This document shows, piece by piece, positions 11,466 through 50,716 of a stretch of DNA of 50,923 nucleotides. Origin of the DNA: a virus; IMG/VR virus record IMGVR_UViG_3300023181_000011, positions 1-50,923 of that record; one strand, given 5' to 3'. Numbering within the stretch: the stretch's first letter is position 1; each line of letters starts with the position of its first letter. The translations under genes and the position numbers were made by a program. The notes under the pieces are model-generated. The model saw only the letters and a list, made by a program, of their open reading frames with translations. It was not told the DNA's origin and made no database searches.

Positions 11466-12167
11466 ATGACCGATATTTTTGCTGAGCCCAAAGACCAAGG
11501 GGTTGGCAACCCACTAGAAGTCCTCGTAGGAGAGGGTAAGAAGTACGCCACTGTAGAGGACCTTGCAAAGTCCCGCATTGCAGCTGACGAACACATTGCC
11601 CGCCTAGAAGCCGAGGCCGCTGAGTTCCGCCAAGGGATTCAACGACAGATTTTAGACCGCGAACAACAATCTCAACAGATCACGCCACCCGTAGGGAACC
11701 AAGACCAAGGTAACCAGTCGCAACGTGCACCTCAAGAAGATTTGGCTGAACGCATCCGCGAAGTAACGCGTCAAGACCGTGAGGCTGAAAAGGCCCGGAC
11801 TAACGTAGAAGCTGTAACGGACCGCCTGACCTCGACCTTCGGTACGCCTGAAGCTGCTAATCAAGCAGTAGCGTCCAAAGCCCGAGAGCTTGGTGTCTCC
11901 CTTAAGTTCCTGCTCGATTCCGCCGCCGCCAGTCCCGCCGCTTTCTATAAGCAAATGGACCTTGACGTCCAACCTCGTAATGCGCCCGCACCTCACGGTA
12001 ACGTGAACACTGGCGCGCTTCACTCCCAATCCGCTGGGTCGGCAAAGGCTGGCACGTACGCATACTACGAAGAACTGCGTAAGTCCAACCCTAAGATTTA
12101 TAATCTGCCAAAGACTCAGCTTGACATGCACAAACAGGCTATGGAGAATCCAAACTTCTTCGGATAG
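11466..12167 (+). CDS. scaffold / capsid assembly protein, 233 aa
   Basis: It lies directly before the major capsid gene and is acidic, helical and Gln/Ala-rich. A long predicted coiled coil covers residues ~35-125 (AADEHIARLEAEAAEFRQG, RIREVTRQDREAEKART), as expected of scaffolds that template procapsid assembly and then leave. Its C-terminal ~30 residues are basic and aromatic (KAGTYAYYEELRKSN), the usual capsid-binding end. Confidence 0.82.
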   Translation: MTDIFAEPKDQGVGNPLEVLVGEGKKYATVEDLAKSRIAADEHIARLEAEAAEFRQGIQRQILDREQQSQQITPPVGNQDQGNQSQRAPQEDLAERIREVTRQDREAEKARTNVEAVTDRLTSTFGTPEAANQAVASKARELGVSLKFLLDSAAASPAAFYKQMDLDVQPRNAPAPHGNVNTGALHSQSAGSAKAGTYAYYEELRKSNPKIYNLPKTQLDMHKQAMENPNFFG

Positions 12168-29827: not shown

Positions 29828-30333
29828 TTGTCATTCCTTTGTGGTTCAATGAGTTCTTCTTCTACCCAATCAATGAGGGCATTGTAACGAGTACTCACCT
29901 CGTTGTATTGACCGATGGCTGTGAGGGACCAGTCGGTAAGGTCGGTAACGGTTGTGGTCGAATCAGCAGGGATCCCGGCGGGATCGGCCTGAGGACTGCC
30001 GGTGATTGCTTCGTTGAGCACCCCGACAGCAACAGGACTAACAGGACAACTGTTAACAGGGACAAGGCTGAGACGGTGCTGTAGCGTCTTGTTGCGTTCC
30101 ACAGCCAGCTGTAGGTTTTCTGCCAGTTCACGTTCGCGGTCAACATTTCTTACTTGTACCTCTTGTATTTCTTTAACTGGGACATATAGGGTCTTCGTGA
30201 CAATACGCGCTTCGTTACGTGAACCAACCAAGTAGCCAGCCCCATATAAACCGGCACCAACAGCAAGAACAGCAGCACCAGCAAGAAGGTAAAGCTTGTA
30301 TCGAGATAGTCCATTAGTGATTACACTCCACAT
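29824..30333 (-). CDS. Rz: inner-membrane spanin (Rz-like), 169 aa
   Basis: Residues ~13-37 form one membrane helix (KLYLLAGAAVLAVGAGLYGA), followed by a periplasmic coiled-coil region (VRNVDRERELAENLQLAVER). An embedded lipoprotein gene in another frame gives the classical Rz/Rz1 arrangement. Spanins fuse inner and outer membranes at the end of lysis. The gene overlaps the reductase end by 13 bases and faces away from holin and endolysin. Confidence 0.85.
   Translation of the reverse strand: MWSVITNGLSRYKLYLLAGAAVLAVGAGLYGAGYLVGSRNEARIVTKTLYVPVKEIQEVQVRNVDRERELAENLQLAVERNKTLQHRLSLVPVNSCPVSPVAVGVLNEAITGSPQADPAGIPADSTTTVTDLTDWSLTAIGQYNEVSTRYNALIDWVEEELIEPQRNDK
29895..30146 (-). CDS. Rz1: outer-membrane spanin lipoprotein (Rz1-like), embedded
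   Basis: This 83-residue frame lies wholly inside the Rz-like gene. A signal helix ends LLLSGC (lipid Cys ~43), and the mature part is Pro-rich (AVLRPIPPG, PQPLPTLPTGPSQP), as in Rz1 proteins. The true start may be later than 30146, since the signal begins near residue 24. It would pair with the inner-membrane spanin across the periplasm. Confidence 0.82.
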   Translation of the reverse strand: MLTANVNWQKTYSWLWNATRRYSTVSALSLLTVVLLVLLLSGCSTKQSPAVLRPIPPGSLLIRPQPLPTLPTGPSQPSVNTTR

Positions 30334-32000
30334 GATCCGCCCTTTCCGCTGATGTCACAAATATCGTGGGTCTCTACGTTCTCTTCAAACGTCTCACCCA
30401 GCTGCTTAACCGCTTCAGAATATTTAACGCTAGTAAGAGGCTGGCCCCCACGAGCACCATCAGGATAGACGGTAAAGCCGCGAAGGCGATGAGCGTAACT
30501 AGCAAGAGTCCCAGCGAAAGCATCAACAGTATCAGGGTTGTTAAGATCAGAACCCCACGAAGGTAAGTTAATAGTCGAACTAATCGACTGGTCCACATAG
30601 TCCTGAACGTCTGCTTGGAACTTGATCCGTTGTTCATAGTTTTCTGCTAGGTCAACAGCGCTTTCAATGTTGTCAGCGTCTGCACCGTAAAGGTTGATTA
30701 GCTCTTGGGCTGTTCCGTCAACGACGTACTGGTAATGCCAGCGAGTCCCTTTAAGGAAACGTCTCTTATAGGCAACGGCAAAGAGGGGTTCAACGCCTGT
30801 AGTTGTACCAGCAAGGATGCCAATTGTTCCGGTAGGTGCGATAGCTCGTGTGGCCACAGGTCGGGATATTCCAAGAGCAGCACTGAATCTTTCACTAACA
30901 ACTGTAGACTGCGCCTTATATACTGCAAGCCATCTGTGGAGTTCGGGACTGACATTATAGCCACTTCCTTTCTTCATCAACCATTCGTGCATACCCATAA
31001 GGCCAAGACCAAGGCGCCGATTCTTAGCACGTACCGCTGCGACCTTCTCGTACGGTAAGTCGGCCTTGAGTGTGCCACAGATAAGAAACTGCGTCGCAAG
31101 GGTGACGATGTCTTTGAACTCGTCGAGGCTGTCGATGCGTCCGAGGTTGATTGAGCCAAGGTTACAGACATCACTATCGTCTTCCGACGTAACCTCAGTA
31201 CAAGCGTTTCTGAGTGTTTCGCGCTCTTTATCAAAGAAATTGAAACTGAACCCCGGTTCAGCAGTACGAAGGGCTTGCGCCACGTTTTGTTTGAATACGT
31301 CACCAACTTCTCCTGTCCGCCAATAATCCAATAACCATTCTGTGTCGTAGTTAACACTGATGTTGGTCATGTCCATCGGTGCCGGGAAGTTAAAGTCTTG
31401 TTGCTTAATATCCCATAGCGATTGTCCAGTAGTCCCGACTGGCATTGACTCCCAATCTTTTGACTTTAAGAACGCTTGGATATCCCCGTGCTTCCAGTTC
31501 AGAGACGCGTAAATAGCTGACCGCCTTGAGCCCCCCTGCATGACCCGACGGCCAATCTCGTTCAGCATCTGCATCTTTGGTATTGGACCAGACGCTGTAC
31601 CCCCCGTCCGGCCTAAGTTCGCACCTTCCGGGCGATACACCGAATAGTCGACACCAATACCCCCGCCCGTCATCAAACAGCTCTCGGCTTTCCACGAAAG
31701 ATTTGCCCAATCTTGCCTCGTATCTTCCTCTGCCTTCAGCAGATAACAGTTGTTATAGAACTTAGCCTGCCGACCTGCATAGTACAGGTATCGGCCACCG
31801 GGGATAAACTTCATTTCTTGGACGTAGCGGATCAGCTGATCTACTTGGTCCTTTGGCATGTGCTCCGAACAGACTTCAGAAATCAGGACGTGTGATAGAT
31901 CGTTCCACGTCTCTGCACCTTCATGTGCGTACTTCTGCTTGAAGATGTCCTCACTGAACTTTGATCGGAATGCTGGGTTTTCGTTTGACCTAAAGCTCAA
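30321..32000 (-). CDS. nrdJ: class II (adenosylcobalamin) ribonucleotide reductase, 559 aa
   Basis: It makes deoxyribonucleotides for phage DNA. Visible features are NNCYLL (~residue 83, redox Cys), the active-site NACTEV (NxCxE, ~269), SDVCNLGSINL (~280, second redox Cys), a phosphate-binding PTGTIGILAGTTTG, and a Cys pair at the C-terminus. No small subunit gene is present, which fits class II. The TTG start shares TTGA with the upstream stop. Such enzymes are typical of cobaviruses. Confidence 0.88.
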   Translation of the reverse strand: MSFRSNENPAFRSKFSEDIFKQKYAHEGAETWNDLSHVLISEVCSEHMPKDQVDQLIRYVQEMKFIPGGRYLYYAGRQAKFYNNCYLLKAEEDTRQDWANLSWKAESCLMTGGGIGVDYSVYRPEGANLGRTGGTASGPIPKMQMLNEIGRRVMQGGSRRSAIYASLNWKHGDIQAFLKSKDWESMPVGTTGQSLWDIKQQDFNFPAPMDMTNISVNYDTEWLLDYWRTGEVGDVFKQNVAQALRTAEPGFSFNFFDKERETLRNACTEVTSEDDSDVCNLGSINLGRIDSLDEFKDIVTLATQFLICGTLKADLPYEKVAAVRAKNRRLGLGLMGMHEWLMKKGSGYNVSPELHRWLAVYKAQSTVVSERFSAALGISRPVATRAIAPTGTIGILAGTTTGVEPLFAVAYKRRFLKGTRWHYQYVVDGTAQELINLYGADADNIESAVDLAENYEQRIKFQADVQDYVDQSISSTINLPSWGSDLNNPDTVDAFAGTLASYAHRLRGFTVYPDGARGGQPLTSVKYSEAVKQLGETFEENVETHDICDISGKGGSCGV

Positions 32001-41353: not shown

Positions 41354-41523
41354 TAGTCGATGGGTTCGTCGTCTAAGATCGCTTCACCGTCGAAGTCGTC
41401 GTCGTTCTCTTCGAGCATCTGATCCCAGCCAGCTTCCCAGCCCAACATGTAGTCAGGGTTGTCGGGTTGCCGTGGGGCGTCGTAATGCCAGAAGTCGTTG
41501 TATCCTTGTTCTTCGCTGCTCAT
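41350..41523 (-). CDS. acidic 57-residue protein
   Basis: The ATG at 41523 shares ATGA with the ThyX stop. The product is strongly acidic (EENDDDFDGEAILDDEP) with several Trp/Tyr. Small acidic phage proteins often mimic DNA to block host nucleases or repressors; that is only a possibility here. Confidence 0.65.
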   Translation of the reverse strand: MSSEEQGYNDFWHYDAPRQPDNPDYMLGWEAGWDQMLEENDDDFDGEAILDDEPIDY

Positions 41524-42155
41524 CCTAATGCTTTCTGTACTTGGGGAAATTGACTGAGGACCAGATTTCTAAGGGACTCTGCCAGTAAGCGGTGCTCCTT
41601 TTGAGTGCCGTCGGTGCATCGCGCTTGGAAATAATGAATCCACGACCGAAGTGTGCCATTCATGTACATCTTGGTAGGCACGAGCCCTTCAGGAAGAACT
41701 GCTCTTGCGACTTCTTTGGCGACGCCTCGGTCGAGCGCTTGTTGGTATACCGTCCCGGTGTGATCCGCGACAGCTTCAACAGCTGAACTCCACCACGCGT
41801 CCAGAACCAATTCTTCTGGGGCGTTCCCTTCAACTTCCACAGAAGCTTGGCGGTTCGTGGGATGTTGCAGCCTACACTCTCGAACAGTTTTGAGTTCGTC
41901 GTAAGCTGCGTATCGACCCGAAAATTCCTGAAACGTAAATGAACGGTGTCGTAAGATTTGTCGGCTGATGTCACGGGTTGTGTTTATCTCCACACAGCAG
42001 TTAACCATTTCAAACGGGGACCAATGACCATGTTTGATCAGGTAAGCGATTAACTTAGAGGCGTCGTCCAGTGGTGACGCGTTCGGGTTCGACACTCGGG
42101 CCATGTACCCCAATAGCTCGTCGCCGTTCGGGGTTGCCCAGATCAATTTGGCCAT
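41520..42155 (-). CDS. thyX: flavin-dependent thymidylate synthase, 211 aa
   Basis: The ThyX signature RHRSFTFQEFS (RHRx7S) is present. I chose ATG 42155 (MAKLIWATP), with GGAGAG eight bases upstream. The enzyme makes dTMP from dUMP using FAD and methylenetetrahydrofolate, complementing the ribonucleotide reductase. The first 100 bases overlap the zinc-ribbon gene upstream. Confidence 0.92.
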   Translation of the reverse strand: MAKLIWATPNGDELLGYMARVSNPNASPLDDASKLIAYLIKHGHWSPFEMVNCCVEINTTRDISRQILRHRSFTFQEFSGRYAAYDELKTVRECRLQHPTNRQASVEVEGNAPEELVLDAWWSSAVEAVADHTGTVYQQALDRGVAKEVARAVLPEGLVPTKMYMNGTLRSWIHYFQARCTDGTQKEHRLLAESLRNLVLSQFPQVQKALG

Positions 42156-42345
42156 TTTCAGTCTCTCCTTCAAACAAAAGAAGAGCTAACTCGCCCCAAG
42201 TGATCGTCTCGTCAGGGTCACCACGACCGCCGACGGTGTCTTGAACAATTTGTTCACATCTGCTGCACGGCTTGGGTTTCATGTCACGCCCGTCAAGGCG
42301 CAACTCGTCCATGCCAGTGCCGCAAATGTAGCAGGGTGTACTCAT
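42055..42345 (-). CDS. zinc-ribbon hypothetical protein, 96 aa
   Basis: Two Cys pairs (CYIC at ~5-8 and CSRC at ~27-30) suggest a zinc ribbon; a hydrophobic helix WGELALLLFEG follows. The ATG shares ATGA with the 30-residue gene. The last ~33 residues are read from bases also coding ThyX. It may be a transcription-related protein; the evidence is only the zinc ribbon. Confidence 0.65.
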   Translation of the reverse strand: MSTPCYICGTGMDELRLDGRDMKPKPCSRCEQIVQDTVGGRGDPDETITWGELALLLFEGETENGQIDLGNPERRRAIGVHGPSVEPERVTTGRRL

Positions 42346-42434
42346 CCGAAGCGGTACATTAAGAACTTAATAATAGACCCGACGATGTCTGCGAAGCCCC
42401 AACCCGCAAGGAAGTAAATGATAAAGTCGATCAA
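42342..42434 (-). CDS. 30-residue membrane peptide
   Basis: A TTG at 42434 shares TTGA with the ATP-grasp stop, with GGAG seven bases upstream. The frame (LIDFIIYFLAGWGFADIVGS...) is hydrophobic and amphipathic. Its stop shares ATGA with the next gene. Double coupling and the good ribosome site support expression. Confidence 0.55.
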   Translation of the reverse strand: MIDFIIYFLAGWGFADIVGSIIKFLMYRFG

Positions 42435-43183
42435 CGAAACGCTCCTGCGTAATTTGTGACTGTGGTACCAACAAGGCCGGGGGCACTATTGATTTCAAGG
42501 ACGTATGATAGACGATCCGGGTGTGCACGCGTTGGCTTTGACACCATCACATCCACCGCACCAAAGTCCAGCCCAACGGCTTCCATTGCCGCGACAGCTT
42601 GGCGAACAGTGTCTTCGGACGGCTGCCCCGAATTACGTGCGTAGATAAATCCACCGGAATGATTGCGTACTGCCCAGTTAGGTTCTCCTGTAAAATCAGG
42701 GTCCCGTATCTTTCGAGTAGAGTCGATGACTTGGCCCTTGACAACGTGAATCCTCCACTCACTTTCTTTCACAATGTACTTAGTATAGCACGGACTGGCC
42801 GGAATGTCAACCCTCGGCTCGACGATTTCGATGCCTTCGCCGCTGTGCCCATTCAGTGTGTGACGACAAACGACCTTAGTACCCCAGCCTCGGGCCACGG
42901 CTGCGTCGGTGGTGAAGTCAACACAGCGAGCCCGATTACCAACATGATTAAAAAACGCCAGTTTATTGGCGGCAACACGGACGCGATCAGGCGGATTGAG
43001 AACCATGCCAGCGCCAGCCACATGATCAGGAAGAGCGCCAGCGTGTCCCCAATTGATAAGGGTGTCGGCTCGTCCGAGTCGTACCTTCGATCCAACGTGT
43101 TTAACCCTTCGGATGCCCAGAGCCTCAGCAAGCGCCTTAGCGCCCTGAGACCCCGGGTTATGTGAATAGATGTAAGTAGCCAT
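42431..43183 (-). CDS. ATP-grasp peptide ligase-like protein, 250 aa
   Basis: The ATP-grasp core is visible: VVCRHTLNGHSGEGI (the nucleotide loop), YIVKESEWRIHVV, and the metal-binding LEINSAPGL near the end. Family members form amide bonds via acyl-phosphates. It follows the amidoligase by two bases and closes the ligase block, as in phiEco32-type clusters. An internal sigma70 promoter lies at 42782-42810. Confidence 0.87.
   Translation of the reverse strand: MATYIYSHNPGSQGAKALAEALGIRRVKHVGSKVRLGRADTLINWGHAGALPDHVAGAGMVLNPPDRVRVAANKLAFFNHVGNRARCVDFTTDAAVARGWGTKVVCRHTLNGHSGEGIEIVEPRVDIPASPCYTKYIVKESEWRIHVVKGQVIDSTRKIRDPDFTGEPNWAVRNHSGGFIYARNSGQPSEDTVRQAVAAMEAVGLDFGAVDVMVSKPTRAHPDRLSYVLEINSAPGLVGTTVTNYAGAFR
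42782..42810 (-). promoter_or_regulatory. internal sigma70 promoter within the ATP-grasp gene
   Basis: On the minus strand TTGACA (42810-42805), 17 bases and TATACT (42787-42782) form a near-consensus promoter. It would express the last third of ATP-grasp plus the membrane peptide, zinc-ribbon, ThyX and primase-helicase independently of the ligase block. Confidence 0.78.
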
Positions 43184-43185
43184 AG

Positions 43186-44472
43186 TTAAAACTCTTCTGG
43201 ATGGTTAGCCCGGCGACGGGCAAGACGAGCGCGGGCCTCAGCAGCTAGTTGCTCATGACGACGAGCATTAGGCGCAGGTTGTGGGGCAGGGGGGAAGGGT
43301 TGTGGCGCCGGCATGTTCCAACGAGCCGGTGCAGCGATGTTAATCATTTCACCGTTACGGCGAACGCCAGCTTCTTGCAAGGGGTGCATGAACTGAGCCC
43401 AGTTGACTTGGTCCATAGCCGGGTTTGGCACTGCACGTTCAACTAGACGGTTTGCGTTAATAATGGCATCAATGTCAACACCTCGTGGGTCCCACTCCTC
43501 GTCAACAATCACTTGGGCTTCACGCCCAGTCAGCTTTTTTTCTTTGACAACCTTAGGTGCAGGCCAGTCAGAGCGGGCAAAGGCGACGTGTTGTGCAAGC
43601 CGCATGCCTTCCCACATCTGACGGTCAAAGCCTTTGCTGAACTCAACGAACGACGGGGCCAGTTCACCGAAGACGTCAGCTGTGAACGACTCCAAACCCA
43701 TCGAACTGAACGCCTGAACGACAGCGGACGGCGACTTGTAGCGGACAGCAGCCAGCTTGAGGCTGTGGATGACGTTGACCCAAGCCGTGATCTCGGCCTT
43801 GTCCATCGTGCCGCGGTGAGACCTGAACTCGACGGTTCCCTTAGACGGCAGGGACGCCCAGTTGAACGAGGCGTAACGGCGATCATTCGACACAAGGTTT
43901 TGCATCGAGTGAGCCCAGTTAGCCCGTCCGCCGCCAAGCCGCTGCTCTTGTTCAGCAACAGGGACGTTGTAGCAGGCATTGCGGGCAGCGTCGATCACAG
44001 CACCGGCATGAGACACCGGAAGACAGTGAACGTTGCCGCACCGCTCTTCGCCGCCAAAGGCGATCATTGGGGCTTCGAAGATCGTGTAAAGCGTGAACAG
44101 AGTGAAGATGTTGGTGAATGATAGACCGAAAGCGTTCATGTGAACGTGAACAGACGTCCGATAGCTGAAGACCGGCGTGAACTCTTTCTTGGTCAGATAG
44201 GCTTGGAGAGCATCCAGATCATCAGAAAGGCTACTATAGGGACGCCCACCACGACTGATAAACTCAATGCCATCACGAAGCGATCCATCTGCGACAGCTT
44301 GCCAAGGAAGGCTGTTCGGCGGCCTGAAGCCTTCGTGATCAGGCCCCAGCCCTTCCATTTCGATCTCAATACCATACGAGTCAGGATCGACTGGACCACT
44401 GACCCCGGTACCCTTGAAATAGTAGTCTCCGACGGACGTTGCCAGAAACTCTTGTTGTTGTTTGTCAACCAC
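43186..44472 (-). CDS. amidoligase-family enzyme (PF12224-type), 428 aa
   Basis: The glutamine-synthetase-like amidoligase pattern is present: YGIEIEMEG near the start, VADGSLRDGIEFIS, a SVHVHMNAFGL segment, and GTVEFRSHRGT. These are metal- and ATP-binding positions in this fold. The C-terminal ~60 residues are Pro/Ala/Arg-rich and probably disordered. The start is GTG at 44472. It likely joins an amine to a carboxylate on a peptide or small molecule; the substrate is unknown. Confidence 0.85.
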   Translation of the reverse strand: MVDKQQQEFLATSVGDYYFKGTGVSGPVDPDSYGIEIEMEGLGPDHEGFRPPNSLPWQAVADGSLRDGIEFISRGGRPYSSLSDDLDALQAYLTKKEFTPVFSYRTSVHVHMNAFGLSFTNIFTLFTLYTIFEAPMIAFGGEERCGNVHCLPVSHAGAVIDAARNACYNVPVAEQEQRLGGGRANWAHSMQNLVSNDRRYASFNWASLPSKGTVEFRSHRGTMDKAEITAWVNVIHSLKLAAVRYKSPSAVVQAFSSMGLESFTADVFGELAPSFVEFSKGFDRQMWEGMRLAQHVAFARSDWPAPKVVKEKKLTGREAQVIVDEEWDPRGVDIDAIINANRLVERAVPNPAMDQVNWAQFMHPLQEAGVRRNGEMINIAAPARWNMPAPQPFPPAPQPAPNARRHEQLAAEARARLARRRANHPEEF

Positions 44473-44476
44473 GGTG

Positions 44477-45130
44477 TTACGCCGCCTCGCAGATAAAAGG
44501 GATACCCTCTTCAGCAAGCACCTCCTTGAGGTATAGGTACTCGTCGTCGAGAGTGAAGTTTTCGAAGTTTTTGCCAATCGCCAAGCCCACAGGGGTCCCG
44601 CGATAGAACAGTTTGAACAGAGACTTGATCTTCATGTCACGGCCAACAGCGAACTGACTGCTGACACCAACCGAAATCCAGCCCTTGTTGTGAATCATAT
44701 CGAACGCTTCCTTGGGCGTCGGATACTTTTGCAACAACATGTCTTCAAGGGCTTGACCGTTCAGCGCTTGATTGCTGACGCGGTTACCGCTTGCTGAAAA
44801 CAGAGCACGGGTTTGAAGACCCTGAATCTGTTGACGAGCAGTGTTACGGACCATGAAGTCGGCCGTCAGACGGTACGGGTCGTTGATGTACCCGACGTGG
44901 AAGATGCGGAAGTTCAGCGCCGGGTCACCGATGGGGATCGACAACTTCTTGGCGTCAGTAATCTCATGACCTGTGTCACCGATCAGTGGGTACACAGACA
45001 CGTCAACCAGCATCGGCTTGGTCTTCGTGGCTTCACGCACCTCGCGCACAAGCACAGCCTTGTCTTCGAACGTCAGGATGGACCCACGTAGCCGCATCCG
45101 GGCCTGTTCAAGGGTGTCATAGACCAGCAT
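44477..45130 (-). CDS. hypothetical protein of the ligase block, 217 aa
   Basis: The ATG overlaps the upstream stop as TAATG. The protein is alpha/beta with no recognised catalytic motif (SIPIGDPALNFRIFHVG, then TPKEAFDMIHNKGWISVG). Its place between the COOH-NH2 ligase and amidoligase suggests it belongs to the same pathway, as substrate, carrier or partner. Confidence 0.75.
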   Translation of the reverse strand: MLVYDTLEQARMRLRGSILTFEDKAVLVREVREATKTKPMLVDVSVYPLIGDTGHEITDAKKLSIPIGDPALNFRIFHVGYINDPYRLTADFMVRNTARQQIQGLQTRALFSASGNRVSNQALNGQALEDMLLQKYPTPKEAFDMIHNKGWISVGVSSQFAVGRDMKIKSLFKLFYRGTPVGLAIGKNFENFTLDDEYLYLKEVLAEEGIPFICEAA

Positions 45131-45324
45131 TATTCTAAATAATCTCCATGTTGATCGCGTTCTTGCAATGTAAATTCTCTGACGTCTCTAAGATCAATCT
45201 CGTCTTCAAGATGACAAAAAGCATTCCAAACACTGTCAAATCTTTTACAGCGTGAAGAACCTTTTTTATAAAAGACTGTCAGAAAATAGTAAGGTTTAAG
45301 CGGCCTGCTGGAACGGGATGGCAA
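45130..45324 (-). CDS. AT-rich small protein, 64 aa, within the ligase block
   Basis: A TTG at 45324 is the only reasonable start and has no clear ribosome site. The stop overlaps the next ATG as TAATG, which supports coupling. The sequence from PYYFLTVFYKKGSS to DVREFTLQERD looks like a compact fold. It is clearly more AT-rich than its neighbours, suggesting recent acquisition. Confidence 0.5.
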   Translation of the reverse strand: MPSRSSRPLKPYYFLTVFYKKGSSRCKRFDSVWNAFCHLEDEIDLRDVREFTLQERDQHGDYLE

Positions 45325-46123
45325 GGTCAGTCTCAAAGTCGAACTTGTCGAACCAACGAACGTCATTGGTGTCGATGATCTGCTTGGCCGTGTCGCCGAA
45401 GATGTCAGCCGGAACGATGCCCTTGAAGTAGTCATTGGCACCCTTCATGGCCGCATCGAAGACCCATGCCTGAAGCTCAGGGTTGGCCAGCCATGCCGTC
45501 GAAGGCGTCCGATACTCCATGCCGTAAGGCTTGGCCCGGAAGGCACCAGCACCACCGTACATCGAACGACGACGGTTGTCGGGGTCCCAGATCAGGCTGT
45601 AGATGCCGATGTAGTAGTCCATCTGGACCGCCATGGCCCGGCACAGGTTGAAGTGTTCCTTGTCACCGTACGGGTTCTTGACGTCAGCACCCCAGCCGAT
45701 GTGGATGTGACCAGCAGCGGTCCGGAACGTTTGGAGACCGTTGGGGCGCGGGTTGGCCTCACCGGTGTACGCATTGTAGTCCGGGTCACAGCCCAGTTCG
45801 AGCGACTCACCCGGCTGCATGCCGAGGTACTCAGGGTCGAACTCCATGAACGGGACGCCGTGGGCAATCTCGAAGATGGGCGGCAGTTGGTCAACCAGAT
45901 CGTCCATGACGGACTTGATGTTGGCCATGAACTCGGTACGGGTCCGGCTCGGGTTGATGTTGATCTCGGCAGCCAAGCCGTCGACTTGAATGGCACCGCC
46001 GCTGACAGCGAACGGATTCTTCTTGTCGCCCGGGATCAGGCCGTGACAGGAGACGGGGGACCCAGTGATAGATTCCCGCAGGAACATTTCAGGGTCGGCA
46101 CCGATGGTAATGATGGGTTGCAT
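45296..46123 (-). CDS. phiEco32-type COOH-NH2 ligase, 275 aa
   Basis: The start TIGADPEMFL is the hallmark of the phage COOH-NH2 ligase family (glutamine-synthetase-like fold). Later metal/ATP positions include AAEININPSRTRTEF, AGHIHIGWG and GMEYRTPST. It should use ATP to couple a carboxylate to an amine. It is flanked by glutamine amidotransferases and a second ligase of the same fold class. Confidence 0.87.
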   Translation of the reverse strand: MQPIITIGADPEMFLRESITGSPVSCHGLIPGDKKNPFAVSGGAIQVDGLAAEININPSRTRTEFMANIKSVMDDLVDQLPPIFEIAHGVPFMEFDPEYLGMQPGESLELGCDPDYNAYTGEANPRPNGLQTFRTAAGHIHIGWGADVKNPYGDKEHFNLCRAMAVQMDYYIGIYSLIWDPDNRRRSMYGGAGAFRAKPYGMEYRTPSTAWLANPELQAWVFDAAMKGANDYFKGIVPADIFGDTAKQIIDTNDVRWFDKFDFETDLAIPFQQAA

Positions 46124-46127
46124 TCGC

Positions 46128-47606
46128 TTATGCTTTCGCTTGTTGTTGAAGGTTTGGATCGTTCAGGCACTCAGCACACACAAAGACTTTCTTTGTGTCC
46201 TTAGACGACAGGAGCCTGAACTCACCCTTGTCGTCACCAGTAATGTTACACTCGCCCCAGCCGCACTTGTGGCCAGTCAGTTGCCTGAACTTGGCCTTTG
46301 TGATCTTCTTTCCGTCAGGGCCTTCACGAGTGTCGAAAAGAGACGAGCGCTTAGACTCAGCTACTTGCTTTTTTTTAAAGTCGCCGACAAGGATGACATT
46401 GTTAGCAGCCACCTTGGCCCGGAGTTCAGCGTCGGTGTCACCGAGCAGGAACGGAAGCTCGCTGTCGATCTTGTTGGTAACTTCAGCGGGTGCGTTGTCG
46501 TCTTCAGTCTTCGACCCCTTACCCATCTTTCCGTATTCCCAGCCCTCTTGGTACTGAGACCACTTCGGATAGTCTACTTGGTAGTGGAAGGGGTTGTTGT
46601 AAGTCTGACCCTTTGCGGCGTTCTCCCCGTCAGAAAAGCCCAGAGCCCAGACATCCCACTTGACGTCTTCGAACTCGGCACTTCGCATGTCGTGGATGTC
46701 GGAGGGCTGGTATCCTTGGTGGTCTCCATCACGCAGGCTGGTTGCGGCTGCGCTTGAGGCTGGACTTGAGTTGTTTCCGCCATTGGCGGTTTGTGATGCC
46801 CTTTGGTCTCGTTGGTTGACCCAGTCTTCCCAAGTTGCTCGGCCGTTGTACGGGGGACGGTGAGGCTGGTGTACGGGAAAATTTTGGACACTTTTACCCT
46901 TGACTTCGAGTCGTTGGGGCTTCTCTTGGAAGACGTGCTTGCTGTCCGGGATTTCCCAAGTGAACAGTGTGTCGACAGGAAGTTCGTAAATCTTCTTGTT
47001 GAAGTCAACACCGTTGCGGTCAAGAATCCAACGCAGCATGCCCGGCTCGGATGCCCAGTAAAGGGTATCACAGTCGGCGGCCATGGCGTAGAACAGTGGC
47101 CGTTCCTTGTTACGCACGATGCTGATCGTGTTTTCTTCGTGGTCGTACACGGTCAGAGCCCATGCACCTGCCGCGAGGGCCACAGCGTCCTTGACAGACG
47201 ACAGCTCGTGGATGCTGTTGGCAAGCTGTTCACTGTCAGTGTCGCCTTCAGTGTTCTTGGCCATGTCCCGCAGACAGCCGTAGTCCAAGGTGCCGTTGTG
47301 GGCCACCATGTACCGGCCAGTCCAGAACGGGTGAGCGTTGACGACATTGACCTTGCCGCGAGTTGCGGCGCGGTTGTGGCCCATCAAGACCTTGGCCCCC
47401 GTAACCAGAAGCGCATCGCAACGCTTCATTTGCATGAGGTTTTCAGGACTGATGGGGGACTTCAGCAGACGGACTTCCTTGCCGTGTGTGATAGACCCGA
47501 TGCCTGTGCTGTCCACGCCGCGAAGGTAGTCAGCGTGAAGAAGTTGTTTGAAGACGTTAACGTCACGGGCAATCAGATTACCGGCAACTCCTACTAGACC
47601 GCAGAT
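46128..47606 (-). CDS. class II (Ntn) glutamine amidotransferase, 492 aa, ATC start
   Basis: The family needs a catalytic Cys right after the initiator Met. Here CGLVGVAG follows an ATC codon (47606-47604), with AGGAG eight bases upstream. No ATG, GTG, TTG or CTG occurs in frame between the preceding stop and ATC. A later GTG (47516) would lose the Cys. Further motifs are RGVDSTG, GHNRAATRG and AHNGTLD. After ~residue 230 the protein continues with a Ser/Ala/Gln linker and a C-terminal zinc-finger-like end (CGWGEC...CAEC). It would supply ammonia from glutamine. Confidence 0.85.
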   Translation of the reverse strand: MCGLVGVAGNLIARDVNVFKQLLHADYLRGVDSTGIGSITHGKEVRLLKSPISPENLMQMKRCDALLVTGAKVLMGHNRAATRGKVNVVNAHPFWTGRYMVAHNGTLDYGCLRDMAKNTEGDTDSEQLANSIHELSSVKDAVALAAGAWALTVYDHEENTISIVRNKERPLFYAMAADCDTLYWASEPGMLRWILDRNGVDFNKKIYELPVDTLFTWEIPDSKHVFQEKPQRLEVKGKSVQNFPVHQPHRPPYNGRATWEDWVNQRDQRASQTANGGNNSSPASSAAATSLRDGDHQGYQPSDIHDMRSAEFEDVKWDVWALGFSDGENAAKGQTYNNPFHYQVDYPKWSQYQEGWEYGKMGKGSKTEDDNAPAEVTNKIDSELPFLLGDTDAELRAKVAANNVILVGDFKKKQVAESKRSSLFDTREGPDGKKITKAKFRQLTGHKCGWGECNITGDDKGEFRLLSSKDTKKVFVCAECLNDPNLQQQAKA

Positions 47607-48280
47607 GGTGCACTCTCCTGTGCTGTTTTGTCGACGTCGAAGTCGAACAGTTCATTGAAGACGGACCAAAAGTATTCGGCCGTACCTGTTTTCCCCGGGT
47701 ATTCGGGGTGTGGTTGGAAGCATAGGCACTGAGTGTCCTGATACCAGACCACTTCAGCGTCAACGTCGCCGATGTTGGGGACCTGTGTGACACCGGCAGC
47801 GTGCTTGGTGGTGCACAGAGACGTCCGTTCACCCTTACCAGCGATGGCGATGAGGTTGCCAAGCTTGAGGTTAGGGATCATCTGCTGATGGTGGGTGGAC
47901 GTGACAAGGGCTTGAGTACCGTTGCGCAGGTCCGTCAACCAGTGGTTGGTAGTGTGATGGTTCACATCTTGCCACAACTTACCGCCATTTAAGACGTTAA
48001 GCAGTTGAGCACCCCGGCAGATGCCAAGCATAGGGATGCCGAAGTTCTTGGCCGCCTTGAACAGCTCGACTTCAGCTTCGTCACGCCTCGTGTTGATCCC
48101 GTATGCCCCGGCGATTGGCTCACCGTACAGCTTGGGGTCAATGTCAGCACCACCTGTGAACACCACGATGTCAGCCATCATGAGGTCACGAGTGCCGCGC
48201 CACCCGGCGTCAAGGAACATACCCGCCACGAGGCTATCGAAGCCCCCGGCGATGTACACCTGATTGGCTTTACTGTCCAT
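47594..48280 (-). CDS. class I glutamine amidotransferase / C26 gamma-glutamyl hydrolase-like, 228 aa
   Basis: The nucleophile elbow GICRGAQLLN and the catalytic pair in FQPHPEYP are clear, as is an early FTGGADIDP. This pattern is closest to PuuD-type gamma-glutamyl hydrolases. It may release or transfer gamma-glutamyl groups made by the ligases. The stop overlaps the class II amidotransferase start. Confidence 0.85.
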   Translation of the reverse strand: MDSKANQVYIAGGFDSLVAGMFLDAGWRGTRDLMMADIVVFTGGADIDPKLYGEPIAGAYGINTRRDEAEVELFKAAKNFGIPMLGICRGAQLLNVLNGGKLWQDVNHHTTNHWLTDLRNGTQALVTSTHHQQMIPNLKLGNLIAIAGKGERTSLCTTKHAAGVTQVPNIGDVDAEVVWYQDTQCLCFQPHPEYPGKTGTAEYFWSVFNELFDFDVDKTAQESAPSAV

Positions 48281-49397
48281 TGGCGAACCGGGCCATGCCT
48301 TCGATGTCGGCGGCGGTCAGCGTACGCTCGTACAAGTACAGGGTGGACGAACCGGGGTGATTCGTATTACCTGTCCGAAGCGTCTCGGTGAACCCGGCAG
48401 CTGCCAGATTCTTCGGTGTCTGAACGCCATGCCCGTTTCGTTGGCTGTTGTTGAGGATGAACACAACAACGTCACCAACTTCCCAGCTTCCAAGGAACTT
48501 GACATTCTTCGAAGCATCGTTGTAGATGTTGTAACCCGGGAGTTGCTTACCGGGTGCCATCGTCTTCCACAGCTTCAAGCCAAGCCCGGGGCCACAGTCC
48601 ATACCGGTGAGGATATGATAGTTCGCACCGGACGACTTGCTGTCCATGTACGCCTTGTATTGTGTGGCGTAGTGGCCCGCGTACTTGACAACAGCATCGA
48701 AGTCAACGACAGCAGCCGCTTCGAAGTGATCGTCCTTGGCCTTCGACACAGGGGCGCGGTCTTGACGAACCCACAGGCCAGCGGGTGTACGCTTGGAGTT
48801 GGGGAACTTCTCGGCCGAGATACAGATGCCCGGGGACTTGTAGTCCTTGACCGTTGCGCCGCCACGAGTCTGTCCACCCTTCTTGATAAAGGCCTGAAGG
48901 CTGTACGTGCTTTCGGCAGCAGCCCGATAGTCCTTGACGTATCGTTGCCATTGACCAATGTAATACGTATCAGTCGTACCCTTGATCTTGGATTCGTAGT
49001 TTTCAGCCGACCGAATGTACGTATGGTACTGCTGGTAATCGTACGAGCATTCCCATTCGGCCTGCCACTCGGCTTCGGTCTTCTTACCACCATTGGTGGC
49101 CTTCTGAGGCTGAAGGATCGACGCACCACAGCAGCTGGGGAAACCAACGGCCTTGAAGCCCGGCTCCCAGTCAGAAACCTGTGCCTCGTCGATGATGTCC
49201 TTCACCGCTTCGACGGCCTTGCGTGTCGTGTCCTTAACAGCTTCGACAGCTGCCTTGGCAACGGTCTTGACCGCACCAACGATGTTCGGATTGTCAGGCT
49301 TAACCCAGCGCCACACAGTGTTCCCCTTCAGGGTTTTGATTTGAGCCCTCACGAGGCCTTTGGCGGCCATCGCTTTGGCCAGTTCGGTGTCTTCCAT
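48270..49397 (-). CDS. hypothetical protein of the ligase block with FPxCCG motif, 375 aa
   Basis: Residues ~40-70 form an Ala/Val/Lys amphipathic helix repeat (VAKAAVEAVKDTTRKAVEAV). GFPSCCG stands near residue 88, and the C-terminus has NxxQ, AAAGF, NTNH and LYLYER. The same ordered motifs occur in the 120-residue protein at 50354-50716, with ~200 extra residues between them here. The end resembles a degenerate GNAT fold. The ATG overlaps the upstream stop as TAATG. Function is unknown. Confidence 0.72.
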   Translation of the reverse strand: MEDTELAKAMAAKGLVRAQIKTLKGNTVWRWVKPDNPNIVGAVKTVAKAAVEAVKDTTRKAVEAVKDIIDEAQVSDWEPGFKAVGFPSCCGASILQPQKATNGGKKTEAEWQAEWECSYDYQQYHTYIRSAENYESKIKGTTDTYYIGQWQRYVKDYRAAAESTYSLQAFIKKGGQTRGGATVKDYKSPGICISAEKFPNSKRTPAGLWVRQDRAPVSKAKDDHFEAAAVVDFDAVVKYAGHYATQYKAYMDSKSSGANYHILTGMDCGPGLGLKLWKTMAPGKQLPGYNIYNDASKNVKFLGSWEVGDVVVFILNNSQRNGHGVQTPKNLAAAGFTETLRTGNTNHPGSSTLYLYERTLTAADIEGMARFANGQ

Positions 49398-49753
49398 TAG
49401 GCTGCTTCCTTGTTAAACCAGTCGCCCGATGCGATAGGTTGTTTGTTGATGTCGGCATGATAGATGTACACCTGCACACCGCTGAAGCCACCAACGGACA
49501 CAGTTTCCCGTGTGTACAGGGACGGCACGCCTTCGTACGCATCCAACTCTGCCCACTGGCTGTCTTCGACGTCGAACAGATCACCGACGACGTAACCAGC
49601 ACCGGGACGAATGCCGGGGTACCAGCCAAGGTCGAACAGTTGGTGGCCCATCAGCTTAACATTGCTGACACAGGGTGCCTTGCCGTCGAGGCCGAAGCGA
49701 GCACTGTTGGGGTGACCGGCGCGCAGGGTTCCGTAAACGAAAAGCTTCTTCAC
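49397..49753 (-). CDS. gamma-glutamylcyclotransferase-like protein, 118 aa
   Basis: The start KKLFVYGTLRAGHPN is the family's substrate loop. ELDAYEGVP carries the catalytic Glu, and YTRETVSV follows. Start GTG 49753 shares GTGA with the upstream stop, with AAGGAAG as ribosome site. These enzymes release 5-oxoproline from gamma-glutamyl amines. It is the first recognised enzyme of the ligase block. Confidence 0.9.
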   Translation of the reverse strand: MKKLFVYGTLRAGHPNSARFGLDGKAPCVSNVKLMGHQLFDLGWYPGIRPGAGYVVGDLFDVEDSQWAELDAYEGVPSLYTRETVSVGGFSGVQVYIYHADINKQPIASGDWFNKEAA

Positions 49754-50085: not shown

Positions 50086-50357
50086 AGCTTGATGTCACAT
50101 CCATGTTTCTTCCCGAGCTTACGCATCAGGGTGAACGGTGCGGCGATAATTGCGACGAACAAAAGGAACGGGCCTATCATCGGCCAGAACACAACACCTG
50201 CACCGATCTCAACGTGCTTCTTTTGGAAGTAGTAGGCCGCCAATGAAGTGGTGTTCTTTTCCAAGCAGCCCAGCTTGTACTGGTACCACAGAAAATAAAG
50301 GATGATAGGTGTTAGGTAAATGCCCAACACAATCAAAGTTATTTGAAAGGCGTTCAT
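50082..50357 (-). CDS. two-helix membrane protein, 91 aa
   Basis: The ATG at 50357 shares ATGA with the upstream stop. Residues ~4-24 (FQITLIVLGIYLTPIILYFL) and ~52-74 (GAGVVFWPMIGPFLLFVAII) are membrane helices with basic ends. It precedes the ligase block and may be an early membrane-acting protein. Confidence 0.75.
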   Translation of the reverse strand: MNAFQITLIVLGIYLTPIILYFLWYQYKLGCLEKNTTSLAAYYFQKKHVEIGAGVVFWPMIGPFLLFVAIIAAPFTLMRKLGKKHGCDIKL

Positions 50358-50716
50358 TCGTCGTCTCGTGCCTCCGCTATGACCTTCCGGTACAAAAAGC
50401 ACTCGGAATAGTCGGTTGAATGAAGATTGTTGCACTTGCCCGCCCGACGCCAGCCCAAGCGCCTGAAGATGGGCGCCATGAAGGCCTTCTGCGGAATGTT
50501 CACAGCGGCCAGCAGCATGCCCACAGGGCGTCCGTCGATGGCGTTCATGAGGCCGCCACCAGCCCGAGCGTCCGTTGCTGCTTGAACGAGGTAGGCTTCG
50601 ATCTCGGCAAGCGTCGGTGCCCCGTCACGCCGATCACGGTGGGCATGGCGGGGGTCATTGCCGAAGCTGTGGATGATGGCGATGCCGCAGCATAGGGGGA
50701 ACTGAACGAGCCTCAA
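50354..50716 (-). CDS. FPxCCG-motif protein, GNAT-like, 120 aa
   Basis: The TTG at 50716 shares TTGA with the upstream stop and follows AAGGTGA. The protein begins MRLVQFPLCCGIAII. The C-terminal half (NIPQKAF, RRLGWRRAG, NNLH, CFLYRK) follows the order seen at the end of small phage GNAT-like proteins and of the 375-residue protein at 48270-49397. The family has no known activity to me. Confidence 0.7.
   Translation of the reverse strand: MRLVQFPLCCGIAIIHSFGNDPRHAHRDRRDGAPTLAEIEAYLVQAATDARAGGGLMNAIDGRPVGMLLAAVNIPQKAFMAPIFRRLGWRRAGKCNNLHSTDYSECFLYRKVIAEARDDE

Follow-up and report, generated by a model that had tools for sequence, protein, structure and literature searches.

Background

Cassettes of amide-bond enzymes of the kind carried by phage phiEco32 have been described before (Iyer 2009; Hardies 2013; both as represented in the papers that cite them), and one account (PMC5498523) lists phiEco32, 7-11, PA11, LUZ24, PaP3 and CW02 as carriers and describes in the Pseudoalteromonas phages RIO-1 and PSA-HP1 a 'peptidoglycan modification cassette' of a gamma-glutamyl amidoligase, a second amidoligase, an ATP-grasp protein, a gamma-glutamyl cyclotransferase (GGCT) and an amidotransferase. 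Here we analyse a block of such genes in IMG/VR virus record IMGVR_UViG_3300023181_000011, the whole of which (50,923 bases) is referred to below as the window. In cells, PuuA/PuuD (SpuA), EgtA/EgtC and BtrJ/BtrG each combine a glutamine synthetase-like (GS-like) or ATP-grasp ligase with a hydrolase of the C26, class II Ntn or GGCT type. Our analysis favours, with some reserve, the reading that the window holds a complete phiEco32-type cassette that would run gamma-glutamyl or isopeptide chemistry in the host cytosol. The kind of cassette is already known, and the window is a further example of it with a variant upstream gene; added here are a definition of the core, two families of upstream proteins (X and CCG), and an AUU/AUC start codon in the class II amidotransferase gene.

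A conserved core of five genes plus two

Domains were called with the Pfam and PHROGs libraries and with profile searches, and profiles built from the window genes were scanned against 98 loci (17 from named phages, 80 from IMG/VR, and the window), which were chosen by the presence of a PF14395 ligase gene and show what accompanies that gene, not its frequency. In this set the PF12224 amidoligase and the class II glutamine amidotransferase (GAT-II) each occur in 96 loci, the RimK-like ATP-grasp ligase and a 217-residue protein (U217) each in 95, the C26 amidotransferase in 82 and GGCT in 27. Where enough flanking DNA is available (62 loci), the three ligases and GAT-II are always present, joined by U217 in 60, C26 in 55, the upstream protein X in 50 and GGCT in 17; all five core genes are found together in 60. 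The order PF14395 > U217 > PF12224 holds in 60 of 60 loci, with GAT-II upstream in 55, and the arrangement (X)-C26-GAT-II-PF14395-U217-PF12224-ATP-grasp recurs in some 60 loci with good coverage, drawn from several phage families. The sequence-only reading, made before any database search, had called the block phiEco32-type; the same genes are present in phiEco32, and the assignment stands because the neighbourhood is conserved in related phages. Its description of the block as 'expanded' does not hold, since relatives often have GGCT and C26 as well and nothing is extra except an orphan 64-residue open reading frame (ORF).

All cassette genes of the window lie on the minus strand in one tight leftward operon (Table 1), where Pfam, PHROGs and profiles bear out every enzyme that had been named, gene by gene and in place. 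Neighbouring genes overlap or abut, and the overlaps make a single transcription unit a fitting description. None of the cassette proteins has a membrane-like segment (maximum 19-residue hydropathy 1.53).

The three unassigned proteins of 375, 217 and 64 residues do exist, but their equal standing does not survive comparison. U217 always lies between the PF14395 and PF12224 genes and, judged by its conservation, is a core component of the cassette and not an extra. Its AlphaFold model, computed from 71 sequences, has a mean pLDDT of 88.5, and Foldseek found no match to this fold in the PDB with E <= 0.001 (best E 0.09, query TM 0.18); sequence profile searches of the PDB gave no match for U217 or X. 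Single-sequence searches of IMG/VR found no direct relatives of U217 or the 375-residue protein, and tblastn against phages gave one match for the former and none for the latter, so that the kinship of both came out only through profiles and synteny. The 64-residue ORF has 34% GC, against 53% for the record and 55% for the surrounding operon, and no homologue in the 98 loci, Pfam or PHROGs; it probably lies outside the mechanism. Its candidacy as a carrier peptide with a C-terminal Glu was dropped, the ORF not being conserved. The real core is five genes plus C26 and X, which shows an experimenter what must be co-expressed.

At least 300 sequenced phages carry this chemistry, including phiEco32 and the Pseudomonas PaP3 and PA11 groups: PF14395 was found in 317 and the ATP-grasp protein in 309 of 50,697 phage records, with genus counts that almost coincide (PF14395/ATP-grasp): Pseudomonas 121/120, Escherichia 93/93, Vibrio 22/22, Proteus 8/8 and Salmonella 7/7. 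A scan of genome contigs for a cellular origin, with one peptide pattern, returned 8 contigs, some of them phage-sized.

Three intact ligases

The ATP-grasp protein matches phrog_2599 (E 1e-72) and falls below Pfam cut-offs; its nearest structures by profile are the solved RimK alpha-L-glutamate ligases (E 5e-9). Assignment to the R2K clade (CDC123-like) was rejected at 17.4 bits against a cut-off of 26.2 for R2K_2 and 13.9 against 26.3 for R2K_3. The other two ligases exceed their Pfam cut-offs, as Amidoligase_2 (PF12224, E 9e-8; phrog_7469, E 5e-40) and COOH-NH2_lig (PF14395, E 6e-10; phrog_3815, E 3e-71). Intactness was judged on alignment columns, drawn from up to 98 loci, in which at least 90% of the sequences agree. 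The ATP-grasp protein keeps 10 of 10 such columns, including E142, R144, K158, D211, E230 and N232; the invariant columns of the PF12224 ligase include E36/E38/E40, H109/H111, R144 and R217, and the PF14395 ligase has 22 invariant residues across 17 diverse phages. The window differs at 2 of 24 conserved positions in PF12224 and 2 of 54 in PF14395, at none of which is the consensus charged or His. The family-invariant residues are therefore kept, and the loss of ligase catalytic residues that would have spoken against the sequence-only reading is not seen. In several IMG/VR cassettes (L039, L043, L023, L064, L071 and others) a second ATP-grasp homologue, possibly a paralogue, lies between C26 and GAT-II.

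RimK attaches amino acids to ribosomal protein S6. The closeness of the ATP-grasp protein to RimK is consistent with a cassette that tags a protein, either a host factor or U217/X itself, with amino acids or a short peptide, and the obligatory U217 and fast-evolving X behave as expected of target-facing parts, with mean column identities of 24% (U217) and 15% (X) against 43% for ATP-grasp. The same ATP-grasp profile, however, also reaches D-Ala-D-Ala ligase and cyanophycin synthetase, and we consider protein tagging an unlikely function.

Amidotransferases and cyclotransferase

The C26 protein matches Peptidase_C26 (PF07722, E 8e-23) and keeps 31 of 31 conserved columns, including C88, H191 and E193 (alignment numbering); its nearest solved structures are 3fij and 7d4r/7d50/7d53, and some of the nearest PDB chains are annotated 'probable glutamine amidotransferase'. 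GGCT matches GGACT (PF06094, E 3e-25) and the YtfP structure (E 1e-12) and keeps 11 of 11 conserved columns, including E74 (alignment numbering). GAT-II matches GATase_6 (PF13522, E 5e-17) and, by profile, GlmS/PurF structures (E 2e-17 to 3e-17), and keeps 27 of 27 conserved columns once it is started at ATC.

These glutamine-hydrolysing domains agree with the nitrogen or amino-acid recycling (auxiliary metabolism) suggested for phage ZRK32 (PMC10945688). Recycling needs only hydrolases, however, and leaves the three ligases, the conserved U217 and X, and the fixed gene order unaccounted for; we regard it as very improbable.

A non-canonical start for GAT-II

The class II amidotransferase is present, as the sequence-only reading had it, but its called extent required correction, the gene having 492 codons. 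Standard ORF calling begins it at 47516 and so loses the catalytic Cys. The codon of this nucleophile directly follows an ATC, and once Met is removed the nucleophile has to be the first residue; in the window no in-frame ATG, GTG or TTG lies between the Cys and the upstream stop, which leaves the ATC at 47606-47604 as the only plausible start.

The codon before the Cys in 90 GAT-II genes is ATG in 51, ATT in 17, TTG in 10, ATC in 8, GTG in 3 and TGC in 1, and never ATA or CTG, so that ATT or ATC stands there in 25. No canonical start is found upstream of the Cys in 18 of 95 GAT-II ORFs; for comparison, ORFs without a canonical start number 0 of 96 (PF14395), 0 of 82 (C26) and 1 of 26 (GGCT). 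In 23 of the 25 genes with ATT or ATC a Shine-Dalgarno sequence of at least 4 nt lies within 16 nt of the start, a feature seen at 20% of background ATY-TGY sites; its spacing is mostly 8 nt, as in the window. In phiEco32 the GAT-II start is ATT, with a single codon between it and the preceding stop; RefSeq uses this start, so the annotators of that phage had evidently already seen it. Further ATC/ATT starts of GAT-II genes occur at position 11593 of locus L004 and at 13744-13746 of L002. In a quick tree of GAT-II, parsimony requires 17 changes of the ATT/ATC label, and at least 11 on the branches with good support. The label is clustered beyond chance (only 3 of 500 shuffles gave so low a number); the non-canonical start is therefore partly inherited and has often been gained or lost. 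The idea that it arises from coupling to the upstream stop found no support, stop overlap being no commoner than for AUG. We conclude with considerable confidence that AUU/AUC is a real, well-supported start of GAT-II. Constructs made from annotation limited to ATG, GTG and TTG would be dead because the catalytic Cys is cut off, as in the annotation of phage Klyazma, where GAT-II is started downstream.

The AUU of infC is the classic start codon sensitive to initiation factor 3 (IF3), and by likeness to it we advance IF3 control of GAT-II as a hypothesis. IF3 also represses the GTC-started sigR in Streptomyces, according to PMC5472188. No report of an AUU/AUC start or of IF3 control for a GAT-II gene was found in the literature searched, which is not proof of novelty.

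The slot upstream of C26

Family X is a fast-evolving protein of about 300 residues encoded just upstream of C26 in most cassettes; it corresponds to phrog_34254/27195/38092, forms the C-terminal part of longer members, and has a profile that covers 72 loci. Conserved among 73 aligned sequences are the Cys of a CHA motif (69), an Arg (70), a Glu four residues on (69) and a His (62), besides one Gly and one Ala. The model of one member (pLDDT 89.4) has no fold match in the PDB with E <= 0.001, and a search of a viral library with it gave 14 matches with E <= 0.001, to phage proteins only. Named matches, taken down to E 0.1, are in Citrobacter CVT22, Salinivibrio CW02, Pseudoalteromonas RIO-1, Proteus 3H10_20, Aeromonas LAh_6, LAh_8 and 4_4572, Cronobacter GAP52 (two proteins), Escherichia EP335 and Pseudomonas PaP4. 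Evidence of a cassette exists for CW02 (its locus), PaP4 and 3H10_20 (PF14395) and RIO-1 (PMC5498523), and the remaining named phages belong to cassette-bearing groups; some of the top matches are unnamed. Speculatively, and as a combination that we think improbable, GAT-II may have come repeatedly under AUU/AUC so that its synthesis answers IF3 or initiation stress, and X may be a new, cassette-dedicated cysteine-enzyme fold that with U217 defines what is modified.

In the window the X slot is filled by the 375-residue protein, which was rejected as a member of family X (hhalign probability 1%, no hmmsearch match, and pairwise Z of at most 2.6 over 73 comparisons). It carries FPSCCGASIL and, about 200 residues further on, a C-terminal half with ...ILNNSQ...LAAAGF... 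that resembles the protein encoded at 50354-50716, 1 kb upstream, and proteins beside other cassettes. We built a profile of this CCG signature (FPxCCGxxI in the N-half, LNxxQ...L...GF in the C-half) with the 50354-50716 protein among its seeds and without the 375-residue protein, although after its motif had been seen. The profile matches the 375-residue protein at 91-109 and 315-344, in the correct order, with a whole-sequence E of 0.0097. The protein is thus a candidate CCG-domain protein and a divergent occupant of the slot, a lead of moderate strength because the profile postdates the motif and each matching piece is weak alone. In 22 loci, the window among them, a CCG protein is encoded on the same strand as a cassette gene and no more than 1.5 kb from it; relatives beside cassettes (in L022, L024, L052, L072, L096 and others) match phrog_8299 in some cases, and the 50354-50716 protein does so weakly (E 0.045). 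Identification of the C-terminal half as NlpC/CHAP-like was dropped for want of Pfam support, and that of the protein as LytR_C (PF13399) was rejected at 17 bits against a cut-off of 22.2.

This weak LytR_C match (E 0.012), to a cell-envelope family, bears on the interpretation published for phiEco32/RIO-1 type cassettes, as cited by PMC5498523 and PMC10580990, in which the cassette alters the stem peptide of peptidoglycan precursors and thereby blocks superinfection by other phages. Soluble enzymes could reach the cytosolic precursors, and the gamma-D-Glu linkages of these suit gamma-glutamyl enzymes. However, the LytR_C match overlaps the CCG half, which is the better explanation of that segment, and a murein-specific domain occurs nowhere in the cassette. 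That we know of no experiment on such remodelling also weighs against it, and we hold it possible but on balance rather doubtful.

Genomic context and proposed function

The cassette of the window adjoins primase/helicase, polymerase and ThyX genes, in keeping with the placement in the early/middle arm made in the sequence-only reading, and in most records read it is close to primase/helicase and polymerase genes. This setting would suit hypermodification of phage DNA, but Pfam and PHROGs reveal no nucleotide-specific kinase, glycosylase, PLP or pyrophosphorylase gene in the cassette, and we give this idea almost no credence. The 40-kb record of cobavirus ICBM1, whose terminase large subunit (TerL) is 64% identical to that of the window, has ThyX and primase/helicase and, in its annotation as read (no profile scan was made), no cassette enzyme, on which account the cassette looks optional.

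An optional module is what might be expected if the product were a small amide metabolite for counter-defence or host takeover. Within a few kb of the cassettes of Salmonella 7-11 and Aeromonas LAh_9 lie genes for ribose-phosphate pyrophosphokinase and nicotinamide phosphoribosyltransferase (L005 1005-3568; L013 16018-18684), which together are an NAD+ reconstitution pair and lend the metabolite some support. Such a neighbourhood is nevertheless found in only two of the records compared, and neither a tailoring enzyme nor a transporter accompanies the cassette; a metabolite therefore seems doubtful to us.

We return to the reading that we prefer, gamma-glutamyl or isopeptide chemistry in the host cytosol. 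The cassette would be expressed together with the replication genes; the PF14395, PF12224 and RimK-like ATP-grasp ligases would each use ATP to activate a carboxylate for coupling to an amine, and together they would build a gamma-glutamyl or isopeptide conjugate; and GAT-II, C26 and GGCT would act on glutamine or gamma-glutamyl amides, either to supply ammonia or to trim or release gamma-glutamyl groups. U217 may serve as the obligatory partner, whether scaffold, carrier or acceptor, and the fast-evolving upstream proteins (X mostly, a CCG-domain protein here) would most likely face the host target, which could be a cell-wall precursor, a host protein or a small metabolite. Every named enzyme comes from a family that forms or cleaves amide bonds in substrates of the glutamate type, and by analogy the nearest biochemical precedents would fit gamma-glutamyl amide hydrolysis as well as ammonia supply. 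Several points weigh against this proposal: the literature consulted reports no activity for any phage member; GAT-II and C26 may do no more than supply ammonia; GGCT is not essential, given its presence in just 17 of 62 loci; the C26 and X profiles gave no match in phiEco32 and in several other phages; and the suggested parts of U217, X and CCG proteins derive from conservation.

Table 1. Cassette genes and associated features of the window
Feature	Position	Strand	Basis
ATP-grasp ligase, RimK-like (phrog_2599)	42431..43183	-	PHROG, RimK structures, conserved columns
PF12224 GS-like amidoligase, 428 aa, GTG start at 44472	43186..44472	-	Pfam, phrog_7469
U217, 217-aa core cassette protein (phrog_11055)	44477..45130	-	profile, synteny, AlphaFold
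64-aa ORF, start uncertain, AT-rich	45130..45324	-	open reading frame
PF14395 phiEco32-type COOH-NH2 ligase	45296..46123	-	Pfam, phrog_3815
Class II (Ntn) glutamine amidotransferase (GAT-II), 492 codons, ATC start	46128..47606	-	Pfam, conserved columns, structures
GAT-II ATC start codon	47604..47606	-	no in-frame ATG/GTG/TTG upstream
Shine-Dalgarno AGGAG, 8 nt ahead of ATC	47615..47619	-	read from sequence
C26 / class I type amidotransferase (gamma-glutamyl hydrolase family)	47594..48280	-	Pfam
375-aa protein in X slot	48270..49397	-	two-part CCG profile match
Gamma-glutamyl cyclotransferase (GGCT), AIG2-like	49397..49753	-	Pfam, YtfP structure
Second, compact CCG-domain protein, 120 aa	50354..50716	-	CCG profile seed; weak phrog_8299

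The early arm of the window also holds the ThyX thymidylate synthase gene (41520-42173) and a ribonucleotide reductase large-subunit frame (30321-32000), and a tRNA-Leu (taa) gene lies at 1451-1534 on the minus strand. The window DNA polymerase has distant matches only (37% or less). From its terminase, which is closest to those of cobaviruses, and its cassette relatives, which are mostly Zobellviridae, the phage appears to be Zobellviridae-like (a T7-like podovirus); this is no formal taxonomy.

Comparison with known cassettes

The phiEco32 cassette (genes 77-88) resembles that of the window in having PF14395, a U217 homologue, PF12224, GAT-II, ATP-grasp and GGCT on one strand, in adjoining primase/helicase, and in the non-canonical start of GAT-II, ATT in the one and ATC in the other. 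It differs in gene order after PF12224, in the failure to find C26, and in having two X-like genes before PF14395, whereas the window has C26 and a CCG-domain protein upstream. The Zobellviridae cassettes (Pseudomonas TC6/PA11 group, Salinivibrio CW02, Klebsiella Klyazma) share the window order C26 > GAT-II > PF14395 > U217 > PF12224 > ATP-grasp, but hold an X-family protein where the window has the 375-residue protein. The RIO-1/PSA-HP1 cassette has in common with the window the enzymes listed for it, a comparison made from the text of the paper and not gene by gene, and RIO-1 has an X-fold protein. In contrast, PuuA/PuuD, EgtA/EgtC and BtrJ/BtrG are cellular systems in which a single ligase goes with a single hydrolase; the phage cassette, with three ligases and three hydrolases accompanied by U217 and X, is not homologous to those pairs as a system.

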